DNA from: a virus
Reading direction: 5' to 3' (one strand)
IMG/VR virus record: IMGVR_UViG_3300042372_000264
Coordinates: 1-30,447 of that record
Length of the DNA: 30,447 nt
The translations under genes and the position numbers were made by a program. Position 1 is the stretch's first letter. Every line of letters begins with the position of its first letter. Under the pieces are notes generated by a model. It searched no databases. It saw only the letters and a list, made by a program, of their open reading frames with translations, and was not told the origin of the DNA. Of this stretch, positions 10,821-30,428 are shown piece after piece.

Positions 10821-11462
10821 ATGGCATTTAAAGTAGCGTATTTTGCCCCAACTATTATTGCAGCGGATCAAGTTCCGCCTGTTGAATTTAGCAAGTTATT
10901 TAATTTAACCAATCAATTACATTTGCATCCCGAGTTACACGAAGCTGATAATCCATTTGTTAGTTTAGTGGGCGGATCTCATATTCAAATGTACCCTGCA
11001 AAAGTTGAACTTGATATTAATTGGCTTATTGTTTGGTTAGAGACAGTGTGTCAAGAGTACATGGATTTAGTAACTGTGCAAACTGGTACAACTGATTTGA
11101 AAATATGTAAACCAGTAATTACAAATGTATGGACTACCCAGCAAACATCAGGAAATTATCAAACCATGCATAGCCATCTAGGTAGTAATATTAGTGGCAA
11201 CATTTATATTAGCACACCTAGTCTTGATGCTAACAGTAACCCTTCCGACGGTCAATTTGTTTTAAAAATGCCGCAAATTAAAGATATATCTAGATTTGTT
11301 ATGCAAGATACATGGAAAACTGATACATCGCCTGGTACCCTTGTAGTGTTTCCAAGTTGTTTAGCACATCTTACATATCCATGGAACGGAACCGGTACTA
11401 GGACCGTTGTGTCTTTTGAAGCGGCAATAGTACCAATTATTGATGACGAGGATGCAGCATGA
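10821..11462 (+). CDS. 2OG-Fe(II) oxygenase-family protein
   Basis: The 213-aa product resembles the compact phage 2-oxoglutarate/Fe(II) dioxygenases (the TIGR02466-like group). Visible signatures are the paired histidines in MHSHLGSNISGNIYIS (His117 and His119), a later Asp-containing strand, and the distal histidine in LVVFPSCLAHLTYPW (His183) followed by RTVVSFE, which supplies the basic residue for 2OG binding. Such enzymes hydroxylate amino acids, nucleobases or proteins; the substrate here is unknown. It lies between replication genes, so a nucleic acid or protein modification linked to replication is possible. Spacing is eight bases from the upstream gene. Confidence 0.82.
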   Translation: MAFKVAYFAPTIIAADQVPPVEFSKLFNLTNQLHLHPELHEADNPFVSLVGGSHIQMYPAKVELDINWLIVWLETVCQEYMDLVTVQTGTTDLKICKPVITNVWTTQQTSGNYQTMHSHLGSNISGNIYISTPSLDANSNPSDGQFVLKMPQIKDISRFVMQDTWKTDTSPGTLVVFPSCLAHLTYPWNGTGTRTVVSFEAAIVPIIDDEDAA

Positions 11463-17941: not shown

Positions 17942-20920
17942 ATGCGGTTACGCGAATTATACGAAACAATAAATCTGTTTGAAGCATACGATACTAAAGT
18001 TGCTAAACTACATAAAGAATTTGCTCAAATGCGAGCAGGCTTTCCAGAAAAGCCAGAAACACAATGGGGGCCTGCAGTACCTGCAATTCCGGGCGATCCA
18101 AGTGTACTTGATGAAACTCAATTAGCAGCATTAGTTGGTTTTGCCGAACAAGCATTTAAGTCGGGTGCAAAACCATCTGAACAAGCAATGCAATGGTACT
18201 TGTCATTACTTGAAACTTATTATAAACAGAACGATCCTAAGTTTGCAGGTAAGTTTGCTGCAATGATTGGCCAGTATCAATTTACTGATTTTAATTCATT
18301 AAACAATGAACTAGCACATTTCTTTACATCAGAATATGCTGATTCACAGTATATGAAGGATTTAGTTAAAGCAATTAGACCAGCTACTACACAAATTGAT
18401 AATCTTATTACTAATGCAACTGCAGCTGAACAAAGAATACATGCAGAAAACGAAGCAGCTCGTAAATTAGCAGGTCGTCCGGATATTAAATTAATGGAAG
18501 GCGATCAAGTAATATTACCAGTAGATAACAAATATGATTGGTGGTGGTTACCATATAGAACACACGAGTTTGAATCAGCAGCTATGGGACATTGTGGTAA
18601 CTGTCAAACATCTGATGGGAATATGTTAAGTCTTCGTACTAAAAAACCTATATGGCCTGAATTAACATTTGAATGGAATCCGCAAGATAAAATGTTATAT
18701 CAAACAAAAGGCCCTCATAATTCAAAACCTGCTCATAGATATCGTCCGGCTATTTTAAAATTAATGCTTAGTGATTTAATAAGCGGCATTGGTAATGATT
18801 CATATCAACCAGCTAACGACTTTTCTATATTTGATTTTGAACCAGCAGATGTAAAAACAATTGCAGATCAAAAACCAAATTTGATTACTAGCCAAATAGA
18901 AAAGTATCCAATTGACTTTTTAAGAGCTCCTGAATTTATTAGAGCTATTCCTGAATTTAGAGATATTGCAGTACAAAACGCACGCGGATTAGCGGCACTA
19001 GTTGACAATACTGGCAAAGTCAACACATCACTAGATGCATGGGAAGATGCAATCGAAGCTGACAGAAGTATTATTATTTACGCTCCAGAAGATCTTAAAG
19101 ATTATGAAGACCGAATTATTGATGCGTTAAAACGTGATTCATCATTGCTAGGATTTGCAAGTGCTAAGATTCGCGGTAATCACAAAATTATGTCTGAAGT
19201 AATTAGATGGAATCCTAACTCAATTGAACTAGTTCCTCTTAGAGCACCCGCATATGAAGAACTAGCACTACAAGCAGTTACAAAAAGAGGTGAGCTGTTA
19301 AAGGCTATTCCTGTAGAAAAAAGAACATATGAAATGTGTCTTACAGCTGCAAAAAATCGCCAGCTATGGGATGAAACTCCATTGAGAGAGTTTTACGAAT
19401 TGTTTAATACACTACCCTTTACTAAAGACCAACATAGTGAATTAGCTTCATTGGTATTACAATACGATACAGAAAATAAATTATTAGATTTACTACCGGC
19501 TGAAATTAGAACATTCGTATCCACAATGGCTCGTCTTAAACTCAGTGAGCGTAACTATTATGGTGACGACCGCGCAGCACACGTAAAAGAACTAGTTGAT
19601 TCAGTTACTCCTGGTTCAGTATCTGATGAAGAATATATGAAAATCTGTTTAAAGGCAGGTGAATTATCATTCCACCGCGCAGTACCAACAGAATTCCAAA
19701 CATATGAATATTTTAAAAAATATATACTTACTATAGAACCAACTGCAAACCGTATTATTACACCGGTCTTTACTCCCGCTTTTAAACAATTACTACCTGA
19801 ACAACGAGAAGAATTAGTATCAATTGCTGTAAAGTTATGTCCTGAATCGTATTTTGAATTACCATACGAGTATAAACTTAACTTATCTAGAACACTGAAG
19901 CTGATACAAAAAACTGATAGACCGTTAACTCATGGCATCGTTGCTGATATTACACTAGCGGCAATTGAACATGGTGTATCCGACGAAGACTATGATAAGT
20001 TAATTGCGTATTACAAACACTCACTTAAAACTAGCAGTGGTTCAACAATAAACCTTTTGAATAACTATGCATTGACGCAAGCTAAAAAATATAATAACGA
20101 TGATTGGTTTGACGTGTTAGCGTATGGCGCTAAACTTAACTTAACAGAATTTATAAATATGTTAACTCCTGATTTTGTTGATAATAACTTTGAATGGGTT
20201 GTTGATATTATATGTAAAGAATTTAGTCAGTCTAGATCAAATTTGCACTTTAGTACATTAACCAACCGATATCCTGAAATTGTTGTTGAATTATTCAAAC
20301 GCCTACCAACTAGTGAGCTAGGTAAACTACAATACCCGCATTATATAGCTCAGATGTATGAACTTGATCCTCGCAAGTTTAAACGAGTATTAGAGATTAT
20401 GGTAGATCGAGAACCGCATTTAATTGCAGAAATACAAAATTTAGTACCGGACTATATTCCAGAAACAGAACAATCTTGGGTAGATAGATTGACCTATAAA
20501 GGATTTACTAATGGTGGAATTGCGGCATTAATATATAACTTCCCAATGGAGCTACTAACTCCTGAACTATTAAATACTGCAATCCTTGGTGCAAATAGAA
20601 TGGATGCTAATATTGAAAGAAAAATAGAGGAGTTATACAAATACTATAAAGATAAACCGGAATACGACGCCGTACTAGAAAATATGTTAGATCTTGTACC
20701 TAACATCATTACAATGTTATCTCCTCAAGAGATTGAGCTTTTTCATGTAAAACGCTTTATAACGTATTTAGAAAACAAAAAACACTCACCAGAAACTATA
20801 CTGCTACAGCTTAGAAGAGAACCATTTCCGTCAGCTGCATACCTAAAACCAGACATTGCAGCATATCTAAACAAATATAAAGCAGAGAAAGCACCTAACC
20901 TTAGCTCAATCTCTTTTTAA
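17942..20920 (+). CDS. Giant 992-aa protein, PcfJ-like core with helical repeats; paralog of next gene
   Basis: The N-terminus MRLRELYETINLFEAY contains LFE at 12-14, a T4-type prohead-protease site. A helical region follows to about residue 165. A conserved core at roughly residues 175-275 (EGDQVILPVDN, WWWLPY, AAMGHCGN with His217 and Cys218, LSLRTKKP, QTKGPHNSKP) resembles the PcfJ-like pattern of HC, S-L-R, P-x-x-T-x-E and Q-x-K-G-x-x-N. Residues 290-990 are repeat-like helices (YPIDFLRAPEFI, DRSIIIYAPEDLKD, NPNSIELVPLRAPAYEELAL) reminiscent of DUF4116 repeats. There is no Walker or nuclease motif. It may be packaged and delivered to the host. Confidence 0.78.
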   Translation: MRLRELYETINLFEAYDTKVAKLHKEFAQMRAGFPEKPETQWGPAVPAIPGDPSVLDETQLAALVGFAEQAFKSGAKPSEQAMQWYLSLLETYYKQNDPKFAGKFAAMIGQYQFTDFNSLNNELAHFFTSEYADSQYMKDLVKAIRPATTQIDNLITNATAAEQRIHAENEAARKLAGRPDIKLMEGDQVILPVDNKYDWWWLPYRTHEFESAAMGHCGNCQTSDGNMLSLRTKKPIWPELTFEWNPQDKMLYQTKGPHNSKPAHRYRPAILKLMLSDLISGIGNDSYQPANDFSIFDFEPADVKTIADQKPNLITSQIEKYPIDFLRAPEFIRAIPEFRDIAVQNARGLAALVDNTGKVNTSLDAWEDAIEADRSIIIYAPEDLKDYEDRIIDALKRDSSLLGFASAKIRGNHKIMSEVIRWNPNSIELVPLRAPAYEELALQAVTKRGELLKAIPVEKRTYEMCLTAAKNRQLWDETPLREFYELFNTLPFTKDQHSELASLVLQYDTENKLLDLLPAEIRTFVSTMARLKLSERNYYGDDRAAHVKELVDSVTPGSVSDEEYMKICLKAGELSFHRAVPTEFQTYEYFKKYILTIEPTANRIITPVFTPAFKQLLPEQREELVSIAVKLCPESYFELPYEYKLNLSRTLKLIQKTDRPLTHGIVADITLAAIEHGVSDEDYDKLIAYYKHSLKTSSGSTINLLNNYALTQAKKYNNDDWFDVLAYGAKLNLTEFINMLTPDFVDNNFEWVVDIICKEFSQSRSNLHFSTLTNRYPEIVVELFKRLPTSELGKLQYPHYIAQMYELDPRKFKRVLEIMVDREPHLIAEIQNLVPDYIPETEQSWVDRLTYKGFTNGGIAALIYNFPMELLTPELLNTAILGANRMDANIERKIEELYKYYKDKPEYDAVLENMLDLVPNIITMLSPQEIELFHVKRFITYLENKKHSPETILLQLRREPFPSAAYLKPDIAAYLNKYKAEKAPNLSSISF

Positions 20921-20929
20921 GGAAAATTA

Positions 20930-23662
20930 ATGAAACTAAGAGAATTATACGAAACAATACAACTAGATGAAAACTATAATGGTAAGGTAAACAAACTTAA
21001 AAACTCACCGTTGTTTGCACAACACCCTGATCTACTACAAGACTTTGATGCACGCCTTGAATGGGCTAAACAAGTGTTCAGTGATAAGAATCAACCTATG
21101 CTTTGGTATATCACACTATACGAAGCTTGGCTGTTGCAAAAACAAGACCCTAATGCAAAAGCAAAATATGAAACGATGTTAGGCGGTTATCCACCGTTTG
21201 ACTTTGCTGCATTTGAAGAAACATTAAATCACTGGCTGTCTAGTGCATACGCAGAAAGAAATCAGATTAAAGACGTAGTTAAAAAGATTAACGCCCAAAC
21301 TACAACTGTTGATGCATTAATTAAAAACTTAGAAGCAGCTGAAGCAGTTATTAAAAAAGAAGATGAAGCTAAAGCTAAGAACGCAACTCCGATTGAAATA
21401 CTCGAAGGCGACCATATCATATTGCCGCTTGGTAATCAAGGAGATTGGTGGTTACTACCTACTAGTTCTCATAAGGCAGAATCTAAGATTATGGGACATT
21501 GCGGTACAGCAGGAAACAACAAAAACGTACTATTGAGCTTACGTGATAAAACTCCAATACCTTGGGTTACTATGGAATACAGTGCTGACAACAAAGAACT
21601 CCATCAAATGAAAGGAAGATCTAATTCTAAACCTGCAAATAAATTCCATCATGCAATACTTGTATTATTAAAAAGCGATTTAGTTGACGGAATGTTCACT
21701 GGTCAAACATACCAACCAGCAAGTGACTTTTCTATATTTGATATGAACCCTGCAATGATAGAAGATATCGCCGCTACTAAACCAAATCTTATAATGACTC
21801 AAATTAAAAAGTATCCAATTGACTTCTTAAGAGCACCTCAAACTCTACGTGCAAATCCCGACTATAGAAACTTTGCTATATCATGCTTACCGGGTATTGC
21901 TGTAATCTTAGACGAAGCTGGCGTTACTTCAACAGATAACGACACTTGGGAAGAAGCAATTAACCAAGATCCTGGTATGATTATCTATTCACCAACTACA
22001 TTAAAAGATTGGGAAAACCGTGTTACTAAGTATTTGGTAAAAAATCATAGAAACTTAGGCTATTGCGGTAATCATATCCGTAGTAATTATAATATAATGA
22101 AAGAAGTAATTACACACGGAGATGCAGCTGCAATTGAATTAGTACCATATAGAGCACCTCAGTATAAAGAACTAGCATTACTTGCTATTGGACAATCGCC
22201 AATATTGATTAAATCAGTAAACACAGAAGGCTGGTCTAAAGAGGAAATGAGAAAAGCATGGATGAATGCAGCTCATAAATATTTAGATACAGAAGATTGG
22301 CCAAATGAGTTATTTACACCCGAAGACGACAAAGAAATTTGGCGTACACAGGTTAAAAATAATAGATATTCAATTTCAAAAATTCCACCTGGATTGTTTG
22401 ATGAACAAGAATTAATTGAGGTATGGAGTGATGCAACTAAAGCACATCCTTCGTTAATAAAGTCATCAGGGTTTATCAACTTAAATATCCCAGCAGAAAC
22501 AAAAGATCAAATAAGAATTGCTGCAATATTTGAACACCCAGAATATATTGCTGACTGTAGACCTGACTTAATTGAAGATGAAAATGATAGAATTGAACTT
22601 TGGACTAAGGCATGTGATAGCTATCCTAACTTAATTACTGTACTTAAGAACGCAGCAATACCTGATGAAGTTAAAATAGAATTAACTGTTAAGACAGTAC
22701 GTGATAATCCTACATATATTACAAATATTGATCAACGCTTAATACCTGATGAAAACGAAAGAATTGAACTTTGGATTAAAGCATGCAAAGTTCAACCAAA
22801 ATATAAAAATGATCCGAAATTTCCAACAGACGCATTTGATAGAAACCCTGCAAAACTAAAAGAATTATGGATTAGTATGTTCGAAACCAACTTACCTCAT
22901 GATTGCCCTCGGTTGAATGAAATTCCAGAAGGACTATTTACTCTAGAAGAATTAACTACATTAGCACGTAAAGTAATTGATAAAGACCCAAGCCAACTAA
23001 TGTACGCGCCGCCCTCTATGACAACTACTGAAGAAAAATTAACTACTATTAAAGATCTTATGAATAGTGACCCATGGAAGGTGATGAGCTCACCACATAA
23101 TCCAACTCCGCCTGATCTATATACTAGAGAACAAATTAAAGAAGTTTGGGATTATGCGCTTAGTAATGTTACTGACCCAGAATCAGATAGTAACGATGGA
23201 TATATCGTAACGTCCGATTGGCTGCCATATCATATCGTTGATCAAGACTTGTTAAAGAGTACTATACAACACGGTGCAATAAACGACTATTTTGAGAACG
23301 ATTCTATATTAGCTAGAATAAATTATAATTTGCTTGAACGACTATTTACTCCAGCAGAAATAAGAAAGTTACATAAAGATGTGATAGTAAATGCCGATTG
23401 CTATAATGAAGTCGGCGGACCGTTTGCTGCTATACCTTTAAAGTATAGAACTTATGAGTTATGTAGATTTGCACTTGATCATGACCCGTCTTATATAAAC
23501 GTAGTAGTAGCATCAAAAGAAAACTTTACCGAACGTGAATTTGAAGAATTGCGGGCAATGTCTAATGACCCAATTGATGAAGAGTTCGTTAGAGATATAC
23601 AACAACATACCGCACATAACTCATTCCAAAATTACCGCCCATTGCCATTTGAAGGACAATAA
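20930..23662 (+). CDS. Giant 910-aa protein, tandem paralog with PcfJ-like core
   Basis: This gene begins nine bases after its paralog, with TAAGGAAA as ribosome site. The N-terminus MKLRELYETIQLDENY matches the paralog and keeps an LxE (LDE) at 12-14. The core shows EGDHIILPLGN, WWLLPTSSHKAE, IMGHCGT (His190, Cys191), LLSLRDKTPIPWVTMEY and QMKGRSNSKPANKFHHA. The middle keeps YPIDFLRAPQTL and AIELVPYRAPQYKELAL; the rest of the C-terminal half diverges into other helical repeats (DENDRIELWTKAC, DENERIELWIKAC). Strong core conservation with diverged repeats suggests the core carries the function and repeats set targets. No family has an established activity I can cite. Confidence 0.78.
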   Translation: MKLRELYETIQLDENYNGKVNKLKNSPLFAQHPDLLQDFDARLEWAKQVFSDKNQPMLWYITLYEAWLLQKQDPNAKAKYETMLGGYPPFDFAAFEETLNHWLSSAYAERNQIKDVVKKINAQTTTVDALIKNLEAAEAVIKKEDEAKAKNATPIEILEGDHIILPLGNQGDWWLLPTSSHKAESKIMGHCGTAGNNKNVLLSLRDKTPIPWVTMEYSADNKELHQMKGRSNSKPANKFHHAILVLLKSDLVDGMFTGQTYQPASDFSIFDMNPAMIEDIAATKPNLIMTQIKKYPIDFLRAPQTLRANPDYRNFAISCLPGIAVILDEAGVTSTDNDTWEEAINQDPGMIIYSPTTLKDWENRVTKYLVKNHRNLGYCGNHIRSNYNIMKEVITHGDAAAIELVPYRAPQYKELALLAIGQSPILIKSVNTEGWSKEEMRKAWMNAAHKYLDTEDWPNELFTPEDDKEIWRTQVKNNRYSISKIPPGLFDEQELIEVWSDATKAHPSLIKSSGFINLNIPAETKDQIRIAAIFEHPEYIADCRPDLIEDENDRIELWTKACDSYPNLITVLKNAAIPDEVKIELTVKTVRDNPTYITNIDQRLIPDENERIELWIKACKVQPKYKNDPKFPTDAFDRNPAKLKELWISMFETNLPHDCPRLNEIPEGLFTLEELTTLARKVIDKDPSQLMYAPPSMTTTEEKLTTIKDLMNSDPWKVMSSPHNPTPPDLYTREQIKEVWDYALSNVTDPESDSNDGYIVTSDWLPYHIVDQDLLKSTIQHGAINDYFENDSILARINYNLLERLFTPAEIRKLHKDVIVNADCYNEVGGPFAAIPLKYRTYELCRFALDHDPSYINVVVASKENFTEREFEELRAMSNDPIDEEFVRDIQQHTAHNSFQNYRPLPFEGQ

Positions 23663-24514: not shown

Positions 24515-24633
24515 ACATTGTAAGTTAAGTAATTAACTAGCTTTTTAAAAACTTAGTAGCTGTACAAAACGCGCGTTAAGTGTGCGCATACACACTTAAT
24601 GTTTATATAACCCGCACAAAAAAGGGGATTACT

Positions 24634-25053
24634 ATGCAAATTGAAAATATTACTGTTAATAGCATTGCTAACAATAGCGCAAAATTAGTGCAATGCGTGG
24701 GCGTTAGCACGCACGAAAAAGCGTCAATCGGTATTAAGATACGCTTTAGCGGCAAGCCCGATAGTAGTGCAAGAATTAGCACGCTAATTAACACTAAATT
24801 GCATAAGGGTATTACGTTTTGCAATATAAACGTGCAATGCAGTGAATTGCAAGCCGCACTATTATTGCGCGAATACTTGCAAGCAATAAACGTGCAAGAA
24901 AAAACACTTGATTTAATACCTACGCACGACATTGATGCAGTAACGGTATTTATAAACAAGTTTAGCACTACTGAACAAGATAACGCACGACAAGCGTGCA
25001 ATGACAATAACATACAAATTGTGGAAAACAGTTTAAAAACTGAATACGCATAA
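24634..25053 (+). CDS. Early hypothetical protein, 139 aa
   Basis: ATG 24634 follows AAGGGG (24622-24627); an upstream in-frame GTG at 24580 lies in the leader hairpin and is rejected. The product (MQIENITVNSIANNSAKLVQ, IGIKIRFSGKPDSSARISTL, ELQAALLLREYLQAINV) looks like an alpha/beta globular protein with no motif I know. It is a self-contained unit: promoter at 24487, leader hairpins, gene, terminator at 25065. It is the only convincing rightward gene in the early region. The opposite-strand reading frame over the same bases lacks these signals. Confidence 0.75.
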   Translation: MQIENITVNSIANNSAKLVQCVGVSTHEKASIGIKIRFSGKPDSSARISTLINTKLHKGITFCNINVQCSELQAALLLREYLQAINVQEKTLDLIPTHDIDAVTVFINKFSTTEQDNARQACNDNNIQIVENSLKTEYA

Positions 25054-25152: not shown

Positions 25153-25197
25153 CCGCTATCAGCGGGGCCACCGGCCCATCCGGTACGCTAAAAGCGT
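25153..25197 (+). ncRNA. Three consecutive stem-loops at the start of a rightward transcript
   Basis: CCGCT-ATC-AGCGG (25153-25165), GGGCC-ACC-GGCCC (25165-25177) and ACGCT-AAA-AGCGT (25185-25197) are compact GC-rich hairpins unusual in this AT-rich DNA. They begin about ten bases after the expected transcription start. The first overlaps an AGCGGGGCC box (25161-25169). A small or antisense RNA is plausible. Bases 25198-25255 show nothing further. Confidence 0.45.
25161..25169 (+). repeat. AGCGGGGCC box, copy 1
   Basis: First of eight copies of this GC-rich word in 4.9 kb. Here it is part of the hairpin cluster rather than next to a gene end. Confidence 0.8.
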
Positions 25198-25255: not shown

Positions 25256-25357
25256 CTATAAACCTCTAAGCTCTTTCCATCGCTTAACCTTTTGCGCCAT
25301 ACGCGCCGCCTGTTCACCGGGTGTCATCATTACACGCAATTTGGTTGCGCTGGACAT
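25256..25357 (-). CDS. Short basic protein, 33 aa
   Basis: ATG 25357 on the - strand encodes MSSATKLRVMMTPGEQAARM followed by AQKVKRWKELRGL. The amphipathic, basic helix and a good promoter (25418-25446) suggest a real small gene. There is no GGAG or AGCGTG box in front of the ATG, unlike its neighbours, so the start is less certain. It lies opposite the rightward promoter at 25109. Function is unknown. Confidence 0.55.
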   Translation of the reverse strand: MSSATKLRVMMTPGEQAARMAQKVKRWKELRGL

Positions 25358-25417
25358 ATTGTACTTGTGTAATTTGTGTGTTAGCATAGTTATTATATGT
25401 TGTTGTTAAAAAAATAT

Positions 25418-25493: not shown

Positions 25494-25523
25494 ATTATAC
25501 CACCTTTCCCCACCACCTGTCAA
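25494..25523 (-). promoter_or_regulatory. Consensus TTGACA promoter, leftward
   Basis: TTGACA (25518-25523), 18 bases, TATAAT (25494-25499) on the - strand. The exact -35 hexamer and a G-rich spacer differ from the TTGCNN type used by other units. Confidence 0.72.
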
Positions 25524-25534
25524 CCCCTAAATAG

Positions 25535-25548
25535 TTACAGCGGGGCCT
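25535..25548 (+). repeat. TTACAGCGGGGCCT direct repeat, copy 2 of the box family
   Basis: Identical over 14 bp to the copies at 25779 and 26017, and preceded like the 25779 copy by CCTAAATA. It lies between two leftward promoters; CCCCGGGG follows and can pair with it. The segment 25549-25778 has no gene I can support; it holds a promoter, TTGCATTGCATTGC, and the stem AACGCG / CGCGTT (25683-25703). Confidence 0.85.
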
Positions 25549-25570
25549 GAATCCCCGGGGCTATAGTTAT

Positions 25571-25599
25571 ATTATACTACCTCTAAGATGGTATGTCAA
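25571..25599 (-). promoter_or_regulatory. Perfect consensus promoter TTGACA-17-TATAAT, leftward
   Basis: Both hexamers are exact (-35 at 25594-25599, -10 at 25571-25576 on the - strand). This is the strongest promoter by sequence in the window. No ORF lies within 150 bases downstream, so it may drive an RNA or the 33-aa gene from a distance. Confidence 0.82.
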
Positions 25600-25778
25600 G
25601 TTCTTTTTTCCATTAAAAAATTTGCGCTGTAAGCGTTTAAAATTTTGTACTGCTATAGTTGCATTGCATTGCTTAGTATATAAACGCGCATTGTGTCCGC
25701 GTTAAAACGCAAATTTTAGCATTGCAAATTGTACTTGCTAAACGTATTTTTTAAAAACAAGTAGCAATCCTAAATACC

Positions 25779-25792
25779 TTACAGCGGGGCCT
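25779..25792 (+). repeat. TTACAGCGGGGCCT direct repeat, left flank of the structured RNA segment
   Basis: Exact 14-bp copy paired with 26017-26030; the two bracket a 224-bp segment. Preceded by CCTAAATA at 25769-25776, a possible late-type -10 element on the + strand. Confidence 0.88.
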
Positions 25793-25802
25793 GCTGATAC
25801 GC

Positions 25803-26002
25803 AGGTGGCAGATGGATACAACTATATGTCTCCGGTATCCTGGTGGTTCGGTTATTCAGAGCATTCAAGACCATGATGACCGGTTAACCGATCTAATATG
25901 CGAGACAAGGGGAAGCCCGGTCCATCGCATAATGGATTACGGGCTAAGGGACTACCTATGAAAATTGGTCGGTGAGCAAATTCTACAACCATCTGCCCAC
26001 CT
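25803..26002 (+). ncRNA. Candidate structured RNA, about 200 nt, pseudoknotted, unassigned
   Basis: A GC-richer island without ORF. AGGTGG-CAGATGG (25803-25815) pairs with CCATCTG-C-CCACCT (25989-26002), a 13-bp closing stem with one bulged C. Inside are TATGCGA/TCGCATA (25897-25903 with 25925-25931) whose loop contains AGCCCG (25914-25919) complementary to CGGGCT (25940-25945), an H-type pseudoknot. GGTGGTTC (25842-25849) pairs with GGACTACC (25949-25956). ACCGATC (25887-25893) or CGGTTA/TAACCG compete nearby. The GGTGGTTC and ACCGATC helices need G-U pairs that work only if the + strand is transcribed. I could not match it to a tRNA, tmRNA, RNase P RNA or group I intron. Confidence 0.6.
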
Positions 26003-26016
26003 AGGTCTTTAGTCTT

Positions 26017-26030
26017 TTACAGCGGGGCCT
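26017..26030 (+). repeat. TTACAGCGGGGCCT direct repeat, right flank of the structured RNA segment
   Basis: Exact copy of 25779-25792. It sits 12 bases beyond the stop of the 25-aa gene, so on the - strand it directly follows that gene. Confidence 0.88.
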
Positions 26031-26041
26031 TTCTGCAGGTC

Positions 26042-26119
26042 TTATTTCTTGTTGCGTCTTAACACTCGGCGACATGCAATTTTTTTGCTAGTGGTAGCGC
26101 GGTCGGATCTTCTTGCCAT
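26042..26119 (-). CDS. Very basic 25-aa protein
   Basis: ATG 26119 has GGAG six bases upstream and a promoter at 26154-26182. The product MARRSDRATTSKKIACRRVL plus RRNKK has 11 Arg/Lys in 25 residues, suggesting nucleic-acid or ribosome binding. It is too short for homology calls, but promoter, leader, ribosome site and stop are all in order. The direct repeat and the structured RNA segment follow its stop. Confidence 0.65.
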   Translation of the reverse strand: MARRSDRATTSKKIACRRVLRRNKK

Positions 26120-26153
26120 CTTGTTCTCCTGTGTAGTTACTTAACTTGCATAT

Positions 26154-26182
26154 AGTATAACACAATGCTACACTATATGCAA
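26154..26182 (-). promoter_or_regulatory. Early promoter within a 12-bp inverted repeat
   Basis: TTGCAT (26177-26182), 17 bases, TATACT (26154-26159) on the - strand. CTTGCATATAGT / ACTATATGCAAG form a perfect 12-bp dyad with a 15-bp centre, so both promoter elements lie in the arms, as if a dimeric repressor could cover them. Confidence 0.78.
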
Positions 26183-26195
26183 GCGTTATTTATTA

Positions 26196-26372
26196 CTATT
26201 TTATCAGCGCGTCAAACGCTCCGCAAAACCCTGCAAACGCTATTGTTATCGGAGTTGCCAAGAGCATCCACATTGTCGCGTCCACCATGAAGTTCATTAC
26301 TCCATATTGTGTGTTGCGTGCTTGCGCTTGTTTGTTTAAAAAATTAGTAACTGTTTGTTGTTTAGTTTGCAT
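26196..26372 (-). CDS. Small single-pass membrane protein, 58 aa
   Basis: ATG 26372 gives MQTKQQTVTNFLNKQAQARN then a hydrophobic stretch at about residues 27-54 (MVDATMWMLLATPITIAFAG), long enough for one membrane helix. The start is preceded by ACAGCGTGC, the same box that stands before other early genes. Earlier in-frame ATGs lie in the leader region and are rejected. A role at the host membrane (for example superinfection or lysis control) is possible but unproven. Confidence 0.7.
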   Translation of the reverse strand: MQTKQQTVTNFLNKQAQARNTQYGVMNFMVDATMWMLLATPITIAFAGFCGAFDALIK

Positions 26373-26408
26373 AGTAGTTTGCACGCTGTAGTTGTTTAAG
26401 TAGTGCAT

Positions 26409-26437
26409 AGTATAGCACAATGCTATACTATGCGCAA
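26409..26437 (-). promoter_or_regulatory. Early promoter, leftward
   Basis: TTGCGC (26432-26437), 17 bases, TATACT (26409-26414) on the - strand; the flanks GCATAGTATAGC / GCTATACTATGC are again an inverted repeat. Confidence 0.78.
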
Positions 26438-26453
26438 GTGTTATTTTAAGTTA

Positions 26454-26801
26454 TTACAACCCCGAGCCGCATAAGCAGTTATACACAAACTCAGCGTCCT
26501 GTAATGCCACGTTGTTTATGTAATCCACTAAGTCCTTATGCTCCTCTACTTCCTCTATAAACGCGTGTACCGCAGCATCATCGTTCCACAAGTCCTCATG
26601 TGCATTGTAGTGTGTATTATATATTGTTACTATTTTTGCAATAATGTGCACCGGATGCTCAGTTGTGCCCCACTCCTCCGCATAGCCCTCGTCCGCCAAC
26701 ATAAACACTACACTTGTTATGCTGGGTGTTAGCGGGTACTTGCTTGTGTTAGCGTTATTTGTGTTAATTTTGTTTGTTGTTGCTGTAGTTAAATTTTGCA
26801 T
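26454..26801 (-). CDS. Early acidic protein, paralog 1 of 3
   Basis: The 115-aa product starts MQNLTTATTNKINTNNANTS (low-complexity Thr/Asn/Lys tail) followed by an acidic helical domain: FMLADEGYAEEWGTTEHPVHI, DLWNDDAAVHAFIEEVEEH, LVDYINNVALQDAEFVYNCL and a CLCGSGL end. It is about 90% identical to the gene at 28004 and about 60% to that at 28514. ATG 26801 is preceded by ACAGCGTGC rather than a Shine-Dalgarno; an in-frame GTG at 26810 lies in that box. No known domain. High acidity and duplication are typical of host-takeover or DNA-mimic proteins, but that is inference. Confidence 0.78.
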   Translation of the reverse strand: MQNLTTATTNKINTNNANTSKYPLTPSITSVVFMLADEGYAEEWGTTEHPVHIIAKIVTIYNTHYNAHEDLWNDDAAVHAFIEEVEEHKDLVDYINNVALQDAEFVYNCLCGSGL

Positions 26802-26856
26802 AATAAGCACGCTGTAGTAGTGTTAACAGTTAAGCGTTATTGCTTAACTTGTGCAT

Positions 26857-26885
26857 AGTATAACAAACTAGTTTGCTATTGTAAA
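26857..26885 (-). promoter_or_regulatory. Early promoter with downstream stem-loop
   Basis: TTTACA (26880-26885), 17 bases, TATACT (26857-26862) on the - strand. The transcript starts with AGTTAAGC / GCTTAACT (26828-26849), an 8-bp stem-loop, followed by GTTAACACTACTACAGCGTGC before the ATG. Confidence 0.82.
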
Positions 26886-26909
26886 GCGTTTTTTTATTTT
26901 ATTTTTTGC

Positions 26910-26938
26910 TTGCATTTTACTTTTATTTGTGTTATACT
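26910..26938 (+). promoter_or_regulatory. Rightward promoter opposing the leftward genes
   Basis: TTGCAT, 17 bases, TATACT on the + strand. No rightward ORF follows; a hairpin (26948-26974) begins about ten bases downstream and the transcript would be antisense to the 65-aa gene. Confidence 0.65.
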
Positions 26939-26939
26939 A

Positions 26940-26974
26940 TATAATAAAGCTCGGGCATGCCTAACACCCGAGCT
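26940..26974 (-). terminator. Intrinsic terminator after the 65-aa gene
   Basis: AGCTCGGG / CCCGAGCT form an 8-bp stem; on the - strand TTTATTATAT follows. On the + strand the same hairpin lies at the start of an antisense transcript. Confidence 0.72.
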
Positions 26975-26997
26975 ATCTACAACCAACTACTTCACAC

Positions 26998-27195
26998 TTA
27001 TCTCATATCACTATCACCGGCTACGTCACAGCGTGTCGCGTAACCAGTAAGTACCGTTTCATTCAATCTATCTAGCAATCTTACTTCAACTGCCCGGGCG
27101 GCTTGGCACTCGGCTTCTGTTTGGTATATCAATGTGTTATCAATTTCCTGTGCCCCAATAAACATAAACACCTTTAACACATATAATTTTAACAT
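26998..27195 (-). CDS. Small, possibly exported protein, 65 aa
   Basis: ATG 27195 has GGAG eight bases upstream (27204-27207) within GGAGCGT. The product MLKLYVLKVFMFIGAQEIDN begins with a short hydrophobic stretch and contains two Cys (AECQAARAVEV and TRCDVAGDS), as in small exported phage proteins with one disulfide. The hydrophobic stretch is short for a standard signal peptide. A promoter (27249-27277) and a terminator (26940-26974) make it a single-gene unit. Confidence 0.68.
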   Translation of the reverse strand: MLKLYVLKVFMFIGAQEIDNTLIYQTEAECQAARAVEVRLLDRLNETVLTGYATRCDVAGDSDMR

Positions 27196-27248
27196 TTTAA
27201 ACGCTCCGGCTATTTGTTGTTAGTTAGCGTTATTGCTAACTTGTGCAT

Positions 27249-27277
27249 AGTATAGCAAACTATTAAACTATATGCAA
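27249..27277 (-). promoter_or_regulatory. Early promoter with downstream stem-loop
   Basis: TTGCAT (27272-27277), 17 bases, TATACT (27249-27254) on the - strand. AGTTAGC / GCTAACT (27222-27241) forms the leader stem-loop. Confidence 0.82.
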
Positions 27278-27292
27278 GTGTTTTGTTTTCGG

Positions 27293-27466
27293 TTAGTCCA
27301 CTAATGCACTTGCTCTAAGATCCACAAAGTTCGCATACTTCATTGTGTCTTTTGTTTCTCTGCGCTCACGTAACAATGCAGTCCGGGCACGCTCGACTTC
27401 TCTGCGGGTCTGTACACCAATTAGTCTTGCGCTCAACACTGCCGTATATTCTTGTACCGGTTTCAT
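27293..27466 (-). CDS. Small Arg-rich helical protein, 57 aa
   Basis: ATG 27466 has TAGGAG six bases upstream, a good ribosome site. The product MKPVQEYTAVLSARLIGVQT continues with an Arg/Glu helix (REVERARTALLRERRETKD) and ends YANFVDLRASALVD. It likely shares a transcript with the 99-aa gene 63 bases upstream, beyond a conserved hairpin. No family recognised. Confidence 0.7.
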   Translation of the reverse strand: MKPVQEYTAVLSARLIGVQTRREVERARTALLRERRETKDTMKYANFVDLRASALVD

Positions 27467-27503
27467 TCTATGCTCCTAATGGTTTCGAAAAGTCGTTGTT
27501 GTC

Positions 27504-27519
27504 AGCACGTCCATGTGCT
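27504..27519 (-). other. Intercistronic hairpin AGCAC-GTCCAT-GTGCT
   Basis: A 5-bp stem lies after the stop of the 99-aa gene. Its surroundings (CAGCACGTCCATGTGCTCTG and on through GTGTT) recur almost identically at 28487-28510 after a different gene, so the 3' segment is a shared module. No U-tract. Confidence 0.65.
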
Positions 27520-27529
27520 CTGTGTTGCC

Positions 27530-27829
27530 TTACAGTCCGTACATTTCAGCTACGCTGTTTGCCACACGTCCGTCGTTACCCCATTGTACTTTAATGCAAC
27601 CCGGATGTTCATTGCCCAGTGCTGCCAACTTAGCAAGTGCCAATTCCCAGTTGTTTAGTTTGTCTACTGTTTTCGGAGCGTCAGCACTTGTAAAGTAGTT
27701 AGCTGGTGGTACCTTACGTTCCGGAACATTGCTTTTACTTGTTTTCACTTTACCGCCTGCTTCCAAAAACGCTTGTACTGCATTGTTTGTTGCTGTGTTT
27801 TTTGCTTGTTTGTTTGTATTAGTAAACAT
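27530..27829 (-). CDS. Early protein with FLxxGGxxKT motif, 99 aa
   Basis: ATG 27829 (ACAGCGTGC box upstream) gives MFTNTNKQAKNTATNNAVQA then FLEAGGKVKTSKSNVPERK, NYFTSADAPKTVDKLNNWEL and a C-terminal globular part. The FL-xx-GG-x-(I/V)-K-T-(S/T)-K segment also occurs in the 88-aa gene at 29479, with a similar distance to a later Trp-E-x-A helix, so the two are distant relatives. The basic region might bind nucleic acid. Promoter at 27883-27911. Confidence 0.7.
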   Translation of the reverse strand: MFTNTNKQAKNTATNNAVQAFLEAGGKVKTSKSNVPERKVPPANYFTSADAPKTVDKLNNWELALAKLAALGNEHPGCIKVQWGNDGRVANSVAEMYGL

Positions 27830-27882
27830 AATTTGCACGCTGTAGTAGTGTTAACAGTTAGCGTTATTGCTAACTTGTACAT

Positions 27883-27911
27883 ATTATAGCAAACTAAGCA
27901 CAAGTTAGCAA
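27883..27911 (-). promoter_or_regulatory. Early promoter with downstream stem-loop
   Basis: TTGCTA (27906-27911), 17 bases, TATAAT (27883-27888) on the - strand. AGTTAGC / GCTAACT (27856-27875) is the leader stem-loop. Confidence 0.82.
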
Positions 27912-27946
27912 ATGGTATTTTTGAGTATTGTTTCCATTGTGTCCGC

Positions 27947-27994
27947 GCGTGTGTACACATAACAGCGGGGCCTATTCGGCACTTCCCTGTGCCG
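27947..27994 (+). repeat. GTGTACAC palindrome plus AGCGGGGCC box plus hairpin
   Basis: GTGTACAC is followed by an AGCGGGGCC box (27964-27972) and a perfect 6-bp hairpin CGGCAC-TTCCCT-GTGCCG (27977-27994). On the - strand this unit directly follows the stop of paralog 2. The same order of palindrome, box and hairpin recurs at 28457-28504. Confidence 0.82.
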
Positions 27995-28003
27995 TTGTAT
28001 CCG

Positions 28004-28345
28004 TTATAGTCCCGATCCGCATAAGCAGTTATACACAAACTCAGCATCCTGTAATGCCACATTGTTTATGTAATCCACTAAGTCCTCGTGCTCCTCTACT
28101 TCCTCTACAAACGCTTGTACCGCAGCATCATCGTTCCACAAGTCATCATGTGCTTCATAATGTCTGTTGTATATTGTTACCATTTGCGCAATTATATGCA
28201 CCGGATGTTCAGTAGTGCCCCACTCCTCCGCATAGTTCTCGTCCGCCAACATAAACACTGTACTTGTTACGCTGGGAGTTAGCGGGTACTTGCTTGTGTT
28301 TGCGTTTGCTGTGTTAATTTTTGTTGCTGTAGTAGTATTTTGCAT
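28004..28345 (-). CDS. Early acidic protein, paralog 2 of 3
   Basis: ATG 28345 gives a 113-aa product beginning MQNTTTATKINTANANTSKY. It is nearly identical to the 26454 gene from SKYPLTPS to the CLCGSGL end, with conservative changes (EEHEDLVDY for EEHKDLVDY). The longer in-frame extension upstream runs into the promoter and leader hairpin and is rejected. It keeps the AGCGTGC box before the ATG. Retention of two near-identical copies 1.5 kb apart points to recent duplication together with the regulatory cassette. Confidence 0.78.
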   Translation of the reverse strand: MQNTTTATKINTANANTSKYPLTPSVTSTVFMLADENYAEEWGTTEHPVHIIAQMVTIYNRHYEAHDDLWNDDAAVQAFVEEVEEHEDLVDYINNVALQDAEFVYNCLCGSGL

Positions 28346-28393
28346 AGTTAGCACGCTGTAGTTATAAGTTAGCTTAATTGCTAACTTGTACAT

Positions 28394-28421
28394 ATTATAG
28401 CACGTTTAAACATTTTGTAAA
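28394..28421 (-). promoter_or_regulatory. Early promoter with downstream stem-loop
   Basis: TTTACA (28416-28421), 16 bases containing GTTTAAAC, TATAAT (28394-28399) on the - strand. The leader carries AAGTTAGC / GCTAACTT in a variant stem-loop. Confidence 0.8.
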
Positions 28422-28456
28422 GCGTTTTTTTAAGTTTTGTTTTCGCTGTTACCATA

Positions 28457-28504
28457 CGCGTGTACACATAGCAGCGGGGCCTTTCCGAGCACGTCCATGT
28501 GCTC
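28457..28504 (+). repeat. GTGTACAC palindrome plus AGCGGGGCC box plus hairpin
   Basis: Same arrangement as at 27947: CGCGTGTACACATA, box at 28473-28481, then GAGCAC-GTCCAT-GTGCTC (28487-28504). It directly follows, on the - strand, the stop of paralog 3. Confidence 0.82.
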
Positions 28505-28513
28505 TGTGTTATC

Positions 28514-28861
28514 TTACAAGCCCGAGCAACATAAGCAATCATACACAAACACTGTGTTCTGTAATGCCACATTGTTTATGTAATCCACTAACTTCGCATT
28601 GTCCTCAACTTCCTCTATACACGCTTGCATCGCAGCATCATCGTTCCACAAGTCATCATGTGCTTCGTAATGTCTGTTGTATATCTCTGCTATCTTTAAT
28701 ACTATGTGTGTCGGATGTGTCGTTGTGCTCCACTCCTCCGCAAAGCTCGCATCCGCCAACAGTGCCAGCACACTTGTTTTGCTCGGATAGTACCCGGGCA
28801 ATTTGCTTGTGTTTACGTTTTGTGTGTTAATTTTTGTTGCTGTAGTAGTATTAGTTTGCAT
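28514..28861 (-). CDS. Early acidic protein, paralog 3 of 3 (more diverged)
   Basis: ATG 28861 gives 115 aa beginning MQTNTTTATKINTQNVNTSK. It shares AEEWSTTTHPTHIV, IYNRHYEAHDDLWNDDAA, LVDYINNVALQ and FVYDCLCCSGL with the other two copies, but the region after SKLPGYYPSKTSVLALL differs. Cys replaces Gly in the terminal CLC motif (CLCCSGL). It has its own promoter (28917-28944), leader hairpin and AGCGTGC box. Confidence 0.78.
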   Translation of the reverse strand: MQTNTTTATKINTQNVNTSKLPGYYPSKTSVLALLADASFAEEWSTTTHPTHIVLKIAEIYNRHYEAHDDLWNDDAAMQACIEEVEDNAKLVDYINNVALQNTVFVYDCLCCSGL

Positions 28862-28916
28862 AATAAGCACGCTGTAGTAGTGTTAACAGTTAAGCGTTAT
28901 TGCTTAACTTGTACAT

Positions 28917-28944
28917 AGTATAACACGTTTAAACATTTTGTAAA
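28917..28944 (-). promoter_or_regulatory. Early promoter with downstream stem-loop
   Basis: TTTACA (28939-28944), 16 bases containing GTTTAAAC, TATACT (28917-28922) on the - strand. The leader repeats the AGTTAAGC / GCTTAACT stem-loop and GTTAACACTACTACAGCGTGC seen at 26857. Confidence 0.82.
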
Positions 28945-28977
28945 GCGGTATTTTAGAGTATTGTTTCCGACATAACC

Positions 28978-29463: not shown

Positions 29464-29470
29464 TGTAAAC

Positions 29471-29479
29471 AGCGGGGTC
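29471..29479 (+). repeat. AGCGGGGTC box, variant copy
   Basis: One-base variant of the box, preceded by GCGCGTGTAAAC (a broken version of the GTGTACAC palindrome). Its last base is the first base of the - strand stop codon of the 88-aa gene. Confidence 0.75.
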
Positions 29480-29745
29480 TATTGGCGTGCTTTGATTGCC
29501 GATTGCACCTGCTTGTTCAACAGCCCAATTGCCGCTAGCTCCTCTTTAGCTTGTTCCCATGTGTATCGTTGTTTCTCTACTACAACTACGCGGGGAGTAT
29601 GGACTTGTGATACTGTAGTGCGTCCTCTGCGTCCTGTTTTAGTTGTTTTAATTGCTCCTCCGGTTGCTAAGAACATTGCCACGCGAGCCGCTAACTCCGC
29701 TGCTTGTTGTTGTTTAACTTCGTTGTTCATAATACCTGTTGCCAT
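29479..29745 (-). CDS. Early protein with FLxxGGxxKT motif, 88 aa
   Basis: ATG 29745 overlaps the upstream stop (TAATG) and has GGAG at 29753-29756 (GGAGCGTG). The product MATGIMNNEVKQQQAAELAA continues RVAMFLATGGAIKTTKTGRRGRT, basic and related to the FLEAGGKVKTSK segment of the 99-aa gene at 27530, then YTWEQAKEELAAIGLLNKQV. The Arg/Lys patch suggests nucleic-acid binding. It forms an operon with the zinc-ribbon gene. Confidence 0.72.
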   Translation of the reverse strand: MATGIMNNEVKQQQAAELAARVAMFLATGGAIKTTKTGRRGRTTVSQVHTPRVVVVEKQRYTWEQAKEELAAIGLLNKQVQSAIKARQ

Positions 29746-29968: not shown

Positions 29969-30003
29969 GTAGTTTGTTAACCGCAATGCGCGTGTACATA
30001 AGC

Positions 30004-30012
30004 AGCGGGGCC
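30004..30012 (+). repeat. AGCGGGGCC box, rightmost copy
   Basis: Preceded by GCGCGTGTACATAAGC; its last base is the first base of the stop codon of the 138-aa gene on the - strand. The box abuts a gene end here and at 29471. Confidence 0.8.
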
Positions 30013-30428
30013 TATACGGTAGTTACGAGCAACAAGTTGTCCAACACATCCGCTTTAGCTCTGTATACCATGTTGCCGTGTCTCGTATGCTCAATTACAA
30101 TCCCATTTGCCTCACACCACAAGTCCAAACGCGCTGCTCTTAAGCTCACTTTATCTTTAAACTGTGGTTTGTTGACTTTAACGGCAATAAACTTTTTTCT
30201 GTAGTTCAAAAACACGTTGCTCTGTATATACACATCCTCAATGTGTGCTAACAACGCTTCCCCTGCGCTCAATTGCACTAAGCTATACAAGCTCTCATTC
30301 TCAGCGTCTCTGCGTTTAATATCCTCTAAGCACACGTAAGCTGGAAGTTTGACGTCATCCGATGTGTGTGATACAGCGTGTACAATAGCAGTAGCTGTGT
30401 TTTTGAGTAATTTAGTAGTTGTTGACAT
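30012..30428 (-). CDS. Early hypothetical protein, 138 aa
   Basis: ATG 30428 has GGAG (30437-30440) as part of CGGAGCGT. The product MSTTTKLLKNTATAIVHAVS begins with the Thr/Lys/Asn-rich tail common among these early genes, then continues PAYVCLEDIKRRDAENESLY, YRKKFIAVKVNKPQFKDKVS, LRAARLDLWCEANGIVIEHT and ADVLDNLLLVTTV. A small alpha/beta fold is likely; no motif is recognised. Its promoter must lie beyond the right edge of the window. Confidence 0.7.
   Translation of the reverse strand: MSTTTKLLKNTATAIVHAVSHTSDDVKLPAYVCLEDIKRRDAENESLYSLVQLSAGEALLAHIEDVYIQSNVFLNYRKKFIAVKVNKPQFKDKVSLRAARLDLWCEANGIVIEHTRHGNMVYRAKADVLDNLLLVTTV

Follow-up and report, generated by a model that had tools for sequence, protein, structure and literature searches.

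A candidate structured RNA on the minus strand, bounded by a strand-polar 14-nt motif, in a viral small-gene region

In antitermination of the lambda N/nut type, a small arginine-rich peptide is encoded close to structured RNA, and polar signals recur in the early transcripts. Another arrangement of small phage genes is known as PeSLs, for which the source papers are reportedly those of Arbiol in 2010 and Comeau in 2014. In the excerpted text of PMC4503421, PeSLs are promoter-terminator shuffling cassettes of T4-like phages, with small cassettes, an intergenic element and host-type early promoters. The RNA Polynucleobacter-1 (RF01718) is recorded, in the excerpted text of Weinberg et al. 2010 (PMC2864571), for Burkholderiales and for fresh water and estuary, not for phages. 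Among open-licence papers we found no report of Polynucleobacter-1 in phages, of the 14-nt motif described below, or of the island RNA in phages.

The DNA analysed here (the window) is a viral record of 30,447 bases, which from position 10930 onward coincides with the terminal part of the 175.9-kb IMG/VR contig IMGVR_UViG_3300042382_000268 (G001), with one mismatch, at 26558. PHROGs matches on the plus strand at 0.1–18 kb include a terminase large subunit, a gp32-type SSB, UvsX, UvsY, helicases and a primase, and the best INPHARED match of the helicase is to Sinorhizobium phage Phosso (53.5% identity). Small ORFs with ribosome-binding sites occupy the minus strand from about 26 kb onward, and the island sits at the end of the plus-strand genes, within the still continuing minus-strand series (Table 1). 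Our best guess is that the island specifies an early RNA sharing its transcript with a 25-aa arginine-rich peptide. For the full statement, that the minus strand yields a structured RNA some 220 nt long, which is co-transcribed with the peptide in a series of motif-bounded cassettes and acts in trans, we judge the chances to be about even; our confidence in the structured RNA is higher than that in its mode of action. Like the lambda N/nut system, the island thus described would bring together an arginine-rich peptide ORF, a structured RNA candidate and a polar motif, known here from sequence alone, and we take the parallel as a lead only.

Table 1. Coordinates in the window of the features discussed in the text.
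Feature	Position	Strand	Basis or remark
Boundary motif, exact	26017..26030	-	read AGGCCCCGCTGTAA
Boundary motif, exact	25779..25792	-	window motif scan
Boundary motif, third exact copy	25535..25548	-	window motif scan
Boundary motif, degenerate, 3 mismatches	25157..25170	-	window motif scan
Boundary motif, degenerate, 1 mismatch	27960..27973	-	window motif scan
Boundary motif, degenerate, 2 mismatches	28469..28482	-	window motif scan
Boundary motif, degenerate, 3 mismatches	29467..29480	-	window motif scan
Boundary motif, degenerate, 3 mismatches	30000..30013	-	window motif scan
Candidate structured RNA flanked by motif copies	25793..26016 (5' end 26016 in transcription direction)	-	covariance match R1, pair counts
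25-aa arginine/lysine-rich ORF MARRSDRATTSKKIACRRVLRRNKK, AGGAGA upstream	26042..26119	-	just upstream of RNA; homologs L036, L108
Promoter-like TTGCAT-17-TATACT upstream of peptide ORF	26154..26182	-	pattern match only; kept in L036
Sigma-70-type promoter TTGACA-17-TATAAT, 12/12	25571..25599	-	L036: TTGACA-17-TATACT
Sigma-70-type promoter TTGACA-18-TATAAT, 12/12	25494..25523	-	spacer longer in L036
43-aa ORF, last of minus-strand series as read	25256..25387	-	present also in L108
Predicted hairpin H1, 25991-26001 with 25971-25981, 11 bp including 2 G-U	25971..26001	-	L036: 12-bp hairpin at homologous place; 4 pairs double-changed
Predicted hairpin H3, AGCCCG/CGGGCU stem, loop CAUUAUGCGAUG	25914..25945	-	loop identical in L036
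Predicted hairpin H5, GAUCGG/CCGGUC, one U-G pair on minus	25878..25893	-	only 3 pairs in shared model
Predicted short helix H6, UGGU (25870-25873) with ACCA (25841-25844)	25841..25873	-	L036: UGGA/UCCA, one pair double-changed
Predicted 3' hairpin CCUGC/GCAGG entering motif	25790..25805	-	L036: same stem, other loop
Possible pseudoknot, H3 loop UAUGCGA (25925-25931) with UCGCAUA (25897-25903)	25897..25931	-	7 bp in window

The same locus was found in a single other contig, IMGVR_UViG_3300010388_000228 (locus L036, contig G002), where the island measures 218 nt between motifs, against 224 nt in the window, and the two islands are far less similar to each other than their flanks are. With a GC content of 47.8%, compared to 33.5% at 25549-25778 and 39.4% at 26031-26195, and a longest overlapping ORF of 49 aa, the window island bears out its earlier description as GC-richer and ORF-free. 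Comparison by eye showed no reading frame conserved between the two islands: window ORFs (20-49 aa) and L036 ORFs (23-68 aa) differ in length, start and sequence. A covariance model built from the L036 sequence and its own fold only (R1, 40 pairs) was run without filters over the whole window and gave its best match, 47.6 bits (E 2.9e-14), on the minus strand at 25840-26001, compared to 11.6 bits (E 0.016) for the runner-up in the window and 26.6 bits (E 1.1e-7) for the same letters without structure (R2), all model E-values being rough owing to short calibration. In a two-row alignment of window and L036, which comprises just two alignable sequences and was fitted to the L036-derived structure, thereby favouring it, pairing holds in 93.4% of the 76 cells, and both sides differ in 11 of the 40 pairs. 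None of 500 shuffles reached that level of pairing, and sliding by 1-3 columns leaves 0-2 double-changed pairs. The claim of the sequence-only reading that a structured phage RNA is likely here is strengthened by the R1 match and the double changes; the match lies, however, on the minus strand, opposite to the one proposed. With a plain MAFFT alignment of the two islands the consensus fold is weak on either strand (-19.8 on plus, -16.2 on minus); the helix lists explain this by altered stems around preserved loops.

Searches for further homologs through the 910-aa neighbour, through the 115-aa family or through the 24580-25053 family never went beyond the contigs of the window and L036, and a search for GCAGGTGGCAGATGG found the same two. 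A model built from the G001 and G002 sequences (R3) matched only these source contigs among 12 whole contigs, and among 55 loci only L036 and the overlapping L104. A family in Rfam 15 had been thought worth looking for: at gathering score the window has no match, the 700-nt region gives four matches and L036 three, all sub-threshold. Candidates from looser patterns were judged to be chance by eye (L111-L113) or by eye and model (L130-L132; best 10.5 bits over 25 positions, E 0.067), and two pattern matches in genome_contigs (Paenibacillus, Devosia) were about the number expected by chance by estimate, with no model match at E 1. In a search for named relatives, blastn of window 25500-26060 against INPHARED gave three matches with 8-9% cover and E 0.2, regarded as chance, and no match was obtained with the locus of L036, the Polynucleobacter-1 region from phage, the 25-aa peptide or the N-padded motif.

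In the sequence-only reading the ends of the island are paired in a 13-bp stem, in which compensatory changes were to be expected. In the window AGGTGGCAGATGG/CCATCTGCCCACCT does pair, as 9 bp, one bulged C and 4 bp, but the stem is not kept in L036. On the minus strand CCATCTGCCCACCT is the 5' arm of H1; it differs in L036, where its counterpart is half of a local 12-bp hairpin, whereas its partner GGTGGCAGATGG, the left arm in the window and the minus-strand 3' arm, is identical. The long stem is therefore broken there without compensation, an outcome that the sequence-only reading had itself listed as counting against it. A perfect stem of at least 9 bp arose in 63 of 1000 mononucleotide shuffles, so such a stem is no rarity on its own. 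At the place of H1, read in transcription direction, L036 has UGUUAGGAUAUA/UAUAUCCUAACA around GGUAGUAG, and the window GGUGGGCAGAU/AUUUGCUCACC around GGUUGUAG. In the modelled window fold H1 and the 13-bp stem would compete for one arm, which leaves room for a switch. The 6-bp complement AGCCCG/CGGGCT, previously read as a pseudoknot, does exist but is modelled as the local stem of H3, which in L036 is GACCCUGUAU/AUACAGGGUU around the same loop. Another pairing of this loop is plausible: UAUGCGA with UCGCAUA in the window corresponds to AUGCGAUG/CAUCGCGU in L036 (8 bp, including one G-U), and shuffled partner segments pair equally at rates of 0.36% (window) and 2.7% (L036). It appears to be the better pseudoknot candidate of the two, graded as suggestive only because the partner columns are offset by 5 between window and L036 in the alignment.

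The exact 14-bp repeats TTACAGCGGGGCCT reported at 25779-25792 and 26017-26030 do stand at both ends of the island, but they are not private to it. The window scan revealed a third exact copy at 25535, and with up to 3 mismatches there are 8 matches (3 exact, 5 degenerate) compared to 0.88 expected, all on the plus strand and all within the last 5.3 kb of the window; read in the direction of transcription, here the minus strand, the motif is AGGCCCCGCTGTAA. The exact 14-mer occurs in 101 stretches of viral_contigs, many of them regarded as chance, and for motif statistics we picked 16 contigs from these matches, namely the multi-copy ones plus two single-copy contigs. In these 16 contigs CAGCGGGGYCY has 87 sites, 87/87 on one strand per contig and at least two sites in 14 contigs, and its reversed control occurs once. 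The shorter core CCCCGCTGTA has 72 occurrences, on one strand per contig except in G014 (one on each strand), compared to 1 for its reversed control. With the motif read as AGGCCCCGCTG, 25 of the 83 unique sites have a sigma-70 promoter scoring at least 10/12 no more than 130 nt downstream and 9 have one upstream, compared to 0 downstream in shuffled sequence. Mechanical same-strand ORFs of at least 60 aa contain 21 of the 83 sites. Hairpins precede individual copies in the window (27960, 28469, 25157), but no hairpin was found regularly beside the motif: the 38 nt upstream of 64 sites fold at a mean of -4.2 kcal/mol, those downstream at -3.9 and random nearby segments at -3.7. An intrinsic terminator was rejected, there being neither a regular hairpin nor a T-run, and a palindromic operator was rejected on the strict strand polarity. 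Polarity and promoter placement lead us to read the motif as a putative polar signal close to transcription-unit boundaries, and the motif copies could delimit a unit open to exchange. In other viral contigs (L011, L028, L052, L092, L015) the motif flanks one ORF-sized unit with a spacing of 673-693 nt, and a TAAATA-type sequence often stands immediately past one motif copy.

Compared to PeSLs as outlined in the excerpted source, small-gene cassettes and a recurring intergenic element beside host-type early promoters are found here too, the promoters at part of the motif sites in the proportions given above. Whereas in PeSLs the promoter is preceded by a terminator stem-loop, what recurs here is a polar 14-mer without a regular stem-loop.

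Polynucleobacter-1 offers a closer comparison for the RNA itself. RF01718 scored over its cut-off of 37 bits in 3 of the 16 motif contigs, each time in the direction of transcription: L106:1229-1373 at 61.1 bits (contig G015, 372 kb), L083:4140-4284 at 59.6 bits (G003, 88 kb) and L107:3106-3250 at 59.6 bits (G005, 372 kb); 14 control genomes gave one sub-threshold match. In all three loci a motif variant, TGACCCCGCTG or similar, begins directly at the 3' end of the RNA. The distance to the nearest upstream motif is at most about 75 nt in L106 and L083 but about 1 kb in L107, and by eye TTGACA and a -10-like box precede the RNA in L106 and L083. A known RNA can thus reside in the motif array with the orientation that is proposed for the island. 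Polynucleobacter-1 resembles the island candidate in being a structured orphan RNA located inside the motif array with the motif at its 3' end. The island nevertheless fails the RF01718 model, with no match at gathering level or up to E 10, and its assignment to Polynucleobacter-1 was rejected; G001 and G002 contain no RF01718 match. A second match in G015 (L117, C1:272537-272684 minus) is distant from the array and, at 28.7 bits, below the cut-off.

The peptide ORF upstream of the island has homologs in L036 (MARRSDRAKTAGQKAVRRYIRRNK, 67% over 24 aa) and in L108 (MARRSDRATTANKKAVRRVLRRNKK, 84% over 25 aa), and the peptide gene pattern was found in 3 of 12 searched contigs, those of the window, L036 and L108. 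L108 is the 372-kb contig IMGVR_UViG_3300042367_000228, reached by a search for the peptide gene and motif together with two contigs that have the same stretch (compared by eye). There the peptide is followed by a motif, some 200 nt lacking a long ORF and a second motif, and the island has a 13-bp hairpin and a 6-bp hairpin that by eye resemble the H3-H4 helix order. Because R1 scores 3.8 bits there and R3 1.2 bits (E 0.89), L108 counts as a syntenic island rather than a proven homolog. At about 3700-3750 in L036, a 13-bp duplication lengthens the spacer of the counterpart of the window promoter at 25494-25523, shifting the -35 away.

In the reading we prefer, the island would be expressed from the minus strand along with the early genes, the likely promoter being the one that precedes the 26042-26119 ORF, and the peptide ORF and island RNA would form one transcription unit. 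This unit would be one in a series of cassettes whose edges are marked by the strand-polar motif. The motif may serve as a signal for 3'-end formation or processing, recognised either in the nascent transcript or on the template, and recognition would free the folded RNA; the freed RNA might then act in trans via its conserved loops, or partner the arginine-rich peptide. Standing against this reading are the restriction to two sequences, an alignment fitted to the structure it supports, the weak consensus of the plain alignment, a whole-island fold that is better on the plus strand, as is that of H6 alone, the unmatched island of L108 and, for the motif, the 21 sites inside ORFs and the lack of a regular adjoining hairpin. 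The island could also be a cis-acting 3' UTR element of the peptide mRNA, serving stability or autoregulation by the peptide, rather than a free RNA. This would fit an island that begins right after the peptide stop codon and motif (12 nt in the window, 2 nt in L036) with no promoter between, and the co-occurrence of peptide and island in G001 and G002, but a motif copy closes the 3' end of the island as it does for Polynucleobacter-1, which in two relatives has a TTGACA promoter of its own (by eye). We regard a cis-acting element as rather unlikely, though it deserves to be kept in mind.

The pairs of the shared model bear both on whether the island acts as RNA and on its strand. In the window 31 of 36, including 5 G-U, are standard on the minus strand, compared to 26 of 36 on the plus strand, and there is no A-C that would turn into G-U on the plus strand. 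Such strand asymmetry fits RNA, not DNA sites, as do pairs changed on both sides in distinct hairpins whose loops are conserved. These two observations speak against a fast-evolving spacer without any RNA gene, in which inverted repeats act as DNA (operators, recombination) and folding is due to chance. Palindromic repeats are nevertheless frequent in the region, the 372-kb phage has a different sequence at the same place, and the fold z-scores are moderate; we consider this explanation improbable. The five G-U pairs and the lack of A-C pairs favour the minus strand as the predicted coding strand, which is also that of the neighbouring genes and of both 12/12 sigma-70 promoters found at 25.0-26.5 kb. 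Fold energies of single elements are lower on the minus strand for H1 (-16.2 kcal/mol vs -7.8 on plus) and the H4-H5 region (-8.0 vs -4.3); H6 shows the opposite (-2.1 on minus vs -5.0 on plus). The whole window island gives -73.4 on the plus strand (z -2.76) and -64.7 on the minus strand (z -1.55), and 25779-26030 compared to 200 dinucleotide shuffles gives z -2.41 on plus (3/200 as good) and -1.78 on minus (10/200). In L036 the whole-island z is -3.49 on the gene strand vs -2.30 on the other, and at the third locus there is little difference (-1.65 vs -1.86). The plus-strand RNA of the sequence-only reading, closed by the 13-bp stem, inserted at the repeat and perhaps a late transcript from CCTAAATA, has the lower window fold energy and the window stem in its favour, but with the stem absent from L036, the G-U pairs on minus, a motif that is not specific to the island, and a T4-type late promoter of the TAAATA type at chance level (2 found vs 1.82 expected in the window, at 25769 and 25526) and replaced in L036 by CCACAATA and CCCCTAATATG, it is very unlikely.

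If the minus-strand RNA is real, it represents a phage RNA family missing from Rfam 15, and the motif a one-strand cassette-boundary signal in several viral contigs that could be used to find more small genes and RNAs. The placement of Polynucleobacter-1, listed for bacteria and fresh water, in large viral contigs would open the origin of this orphan RNA to testing; the interest of the locus rests equally on the polar motif, on Polynucleobacter-1 in large viral contigs and on the island. More speculatively, the 14-mer might be a transcript-boundary code across large-phage lineages, serving as a 3'-end, processing or antitermination signal for exchangeable gene and RNA cassettes, with island RNA and peptide as a two-part device in which the peptide binds the RNA and which possibly acts on the code. 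We think this wider idea doubtful, a long shot at present.

Other repeats and gene copies occur in the window. A small minus-strand gene occurs as three tandem paralogs (26454-26753, 28004-28303, 28514-28813), with DNA identities to the first copy of 89% and 74%. A partly palindromic 60-nt repeat (CTTGCATATAGTATAACAC...TATATGCAAG) is present five times within 26132-28954, in several cases directly upstream of small minus-strand genes. Two adjacent large ORFs of 992 and 910 aa, at 17942-23662, both have a DUF4116 match above the Pfam cut-off.
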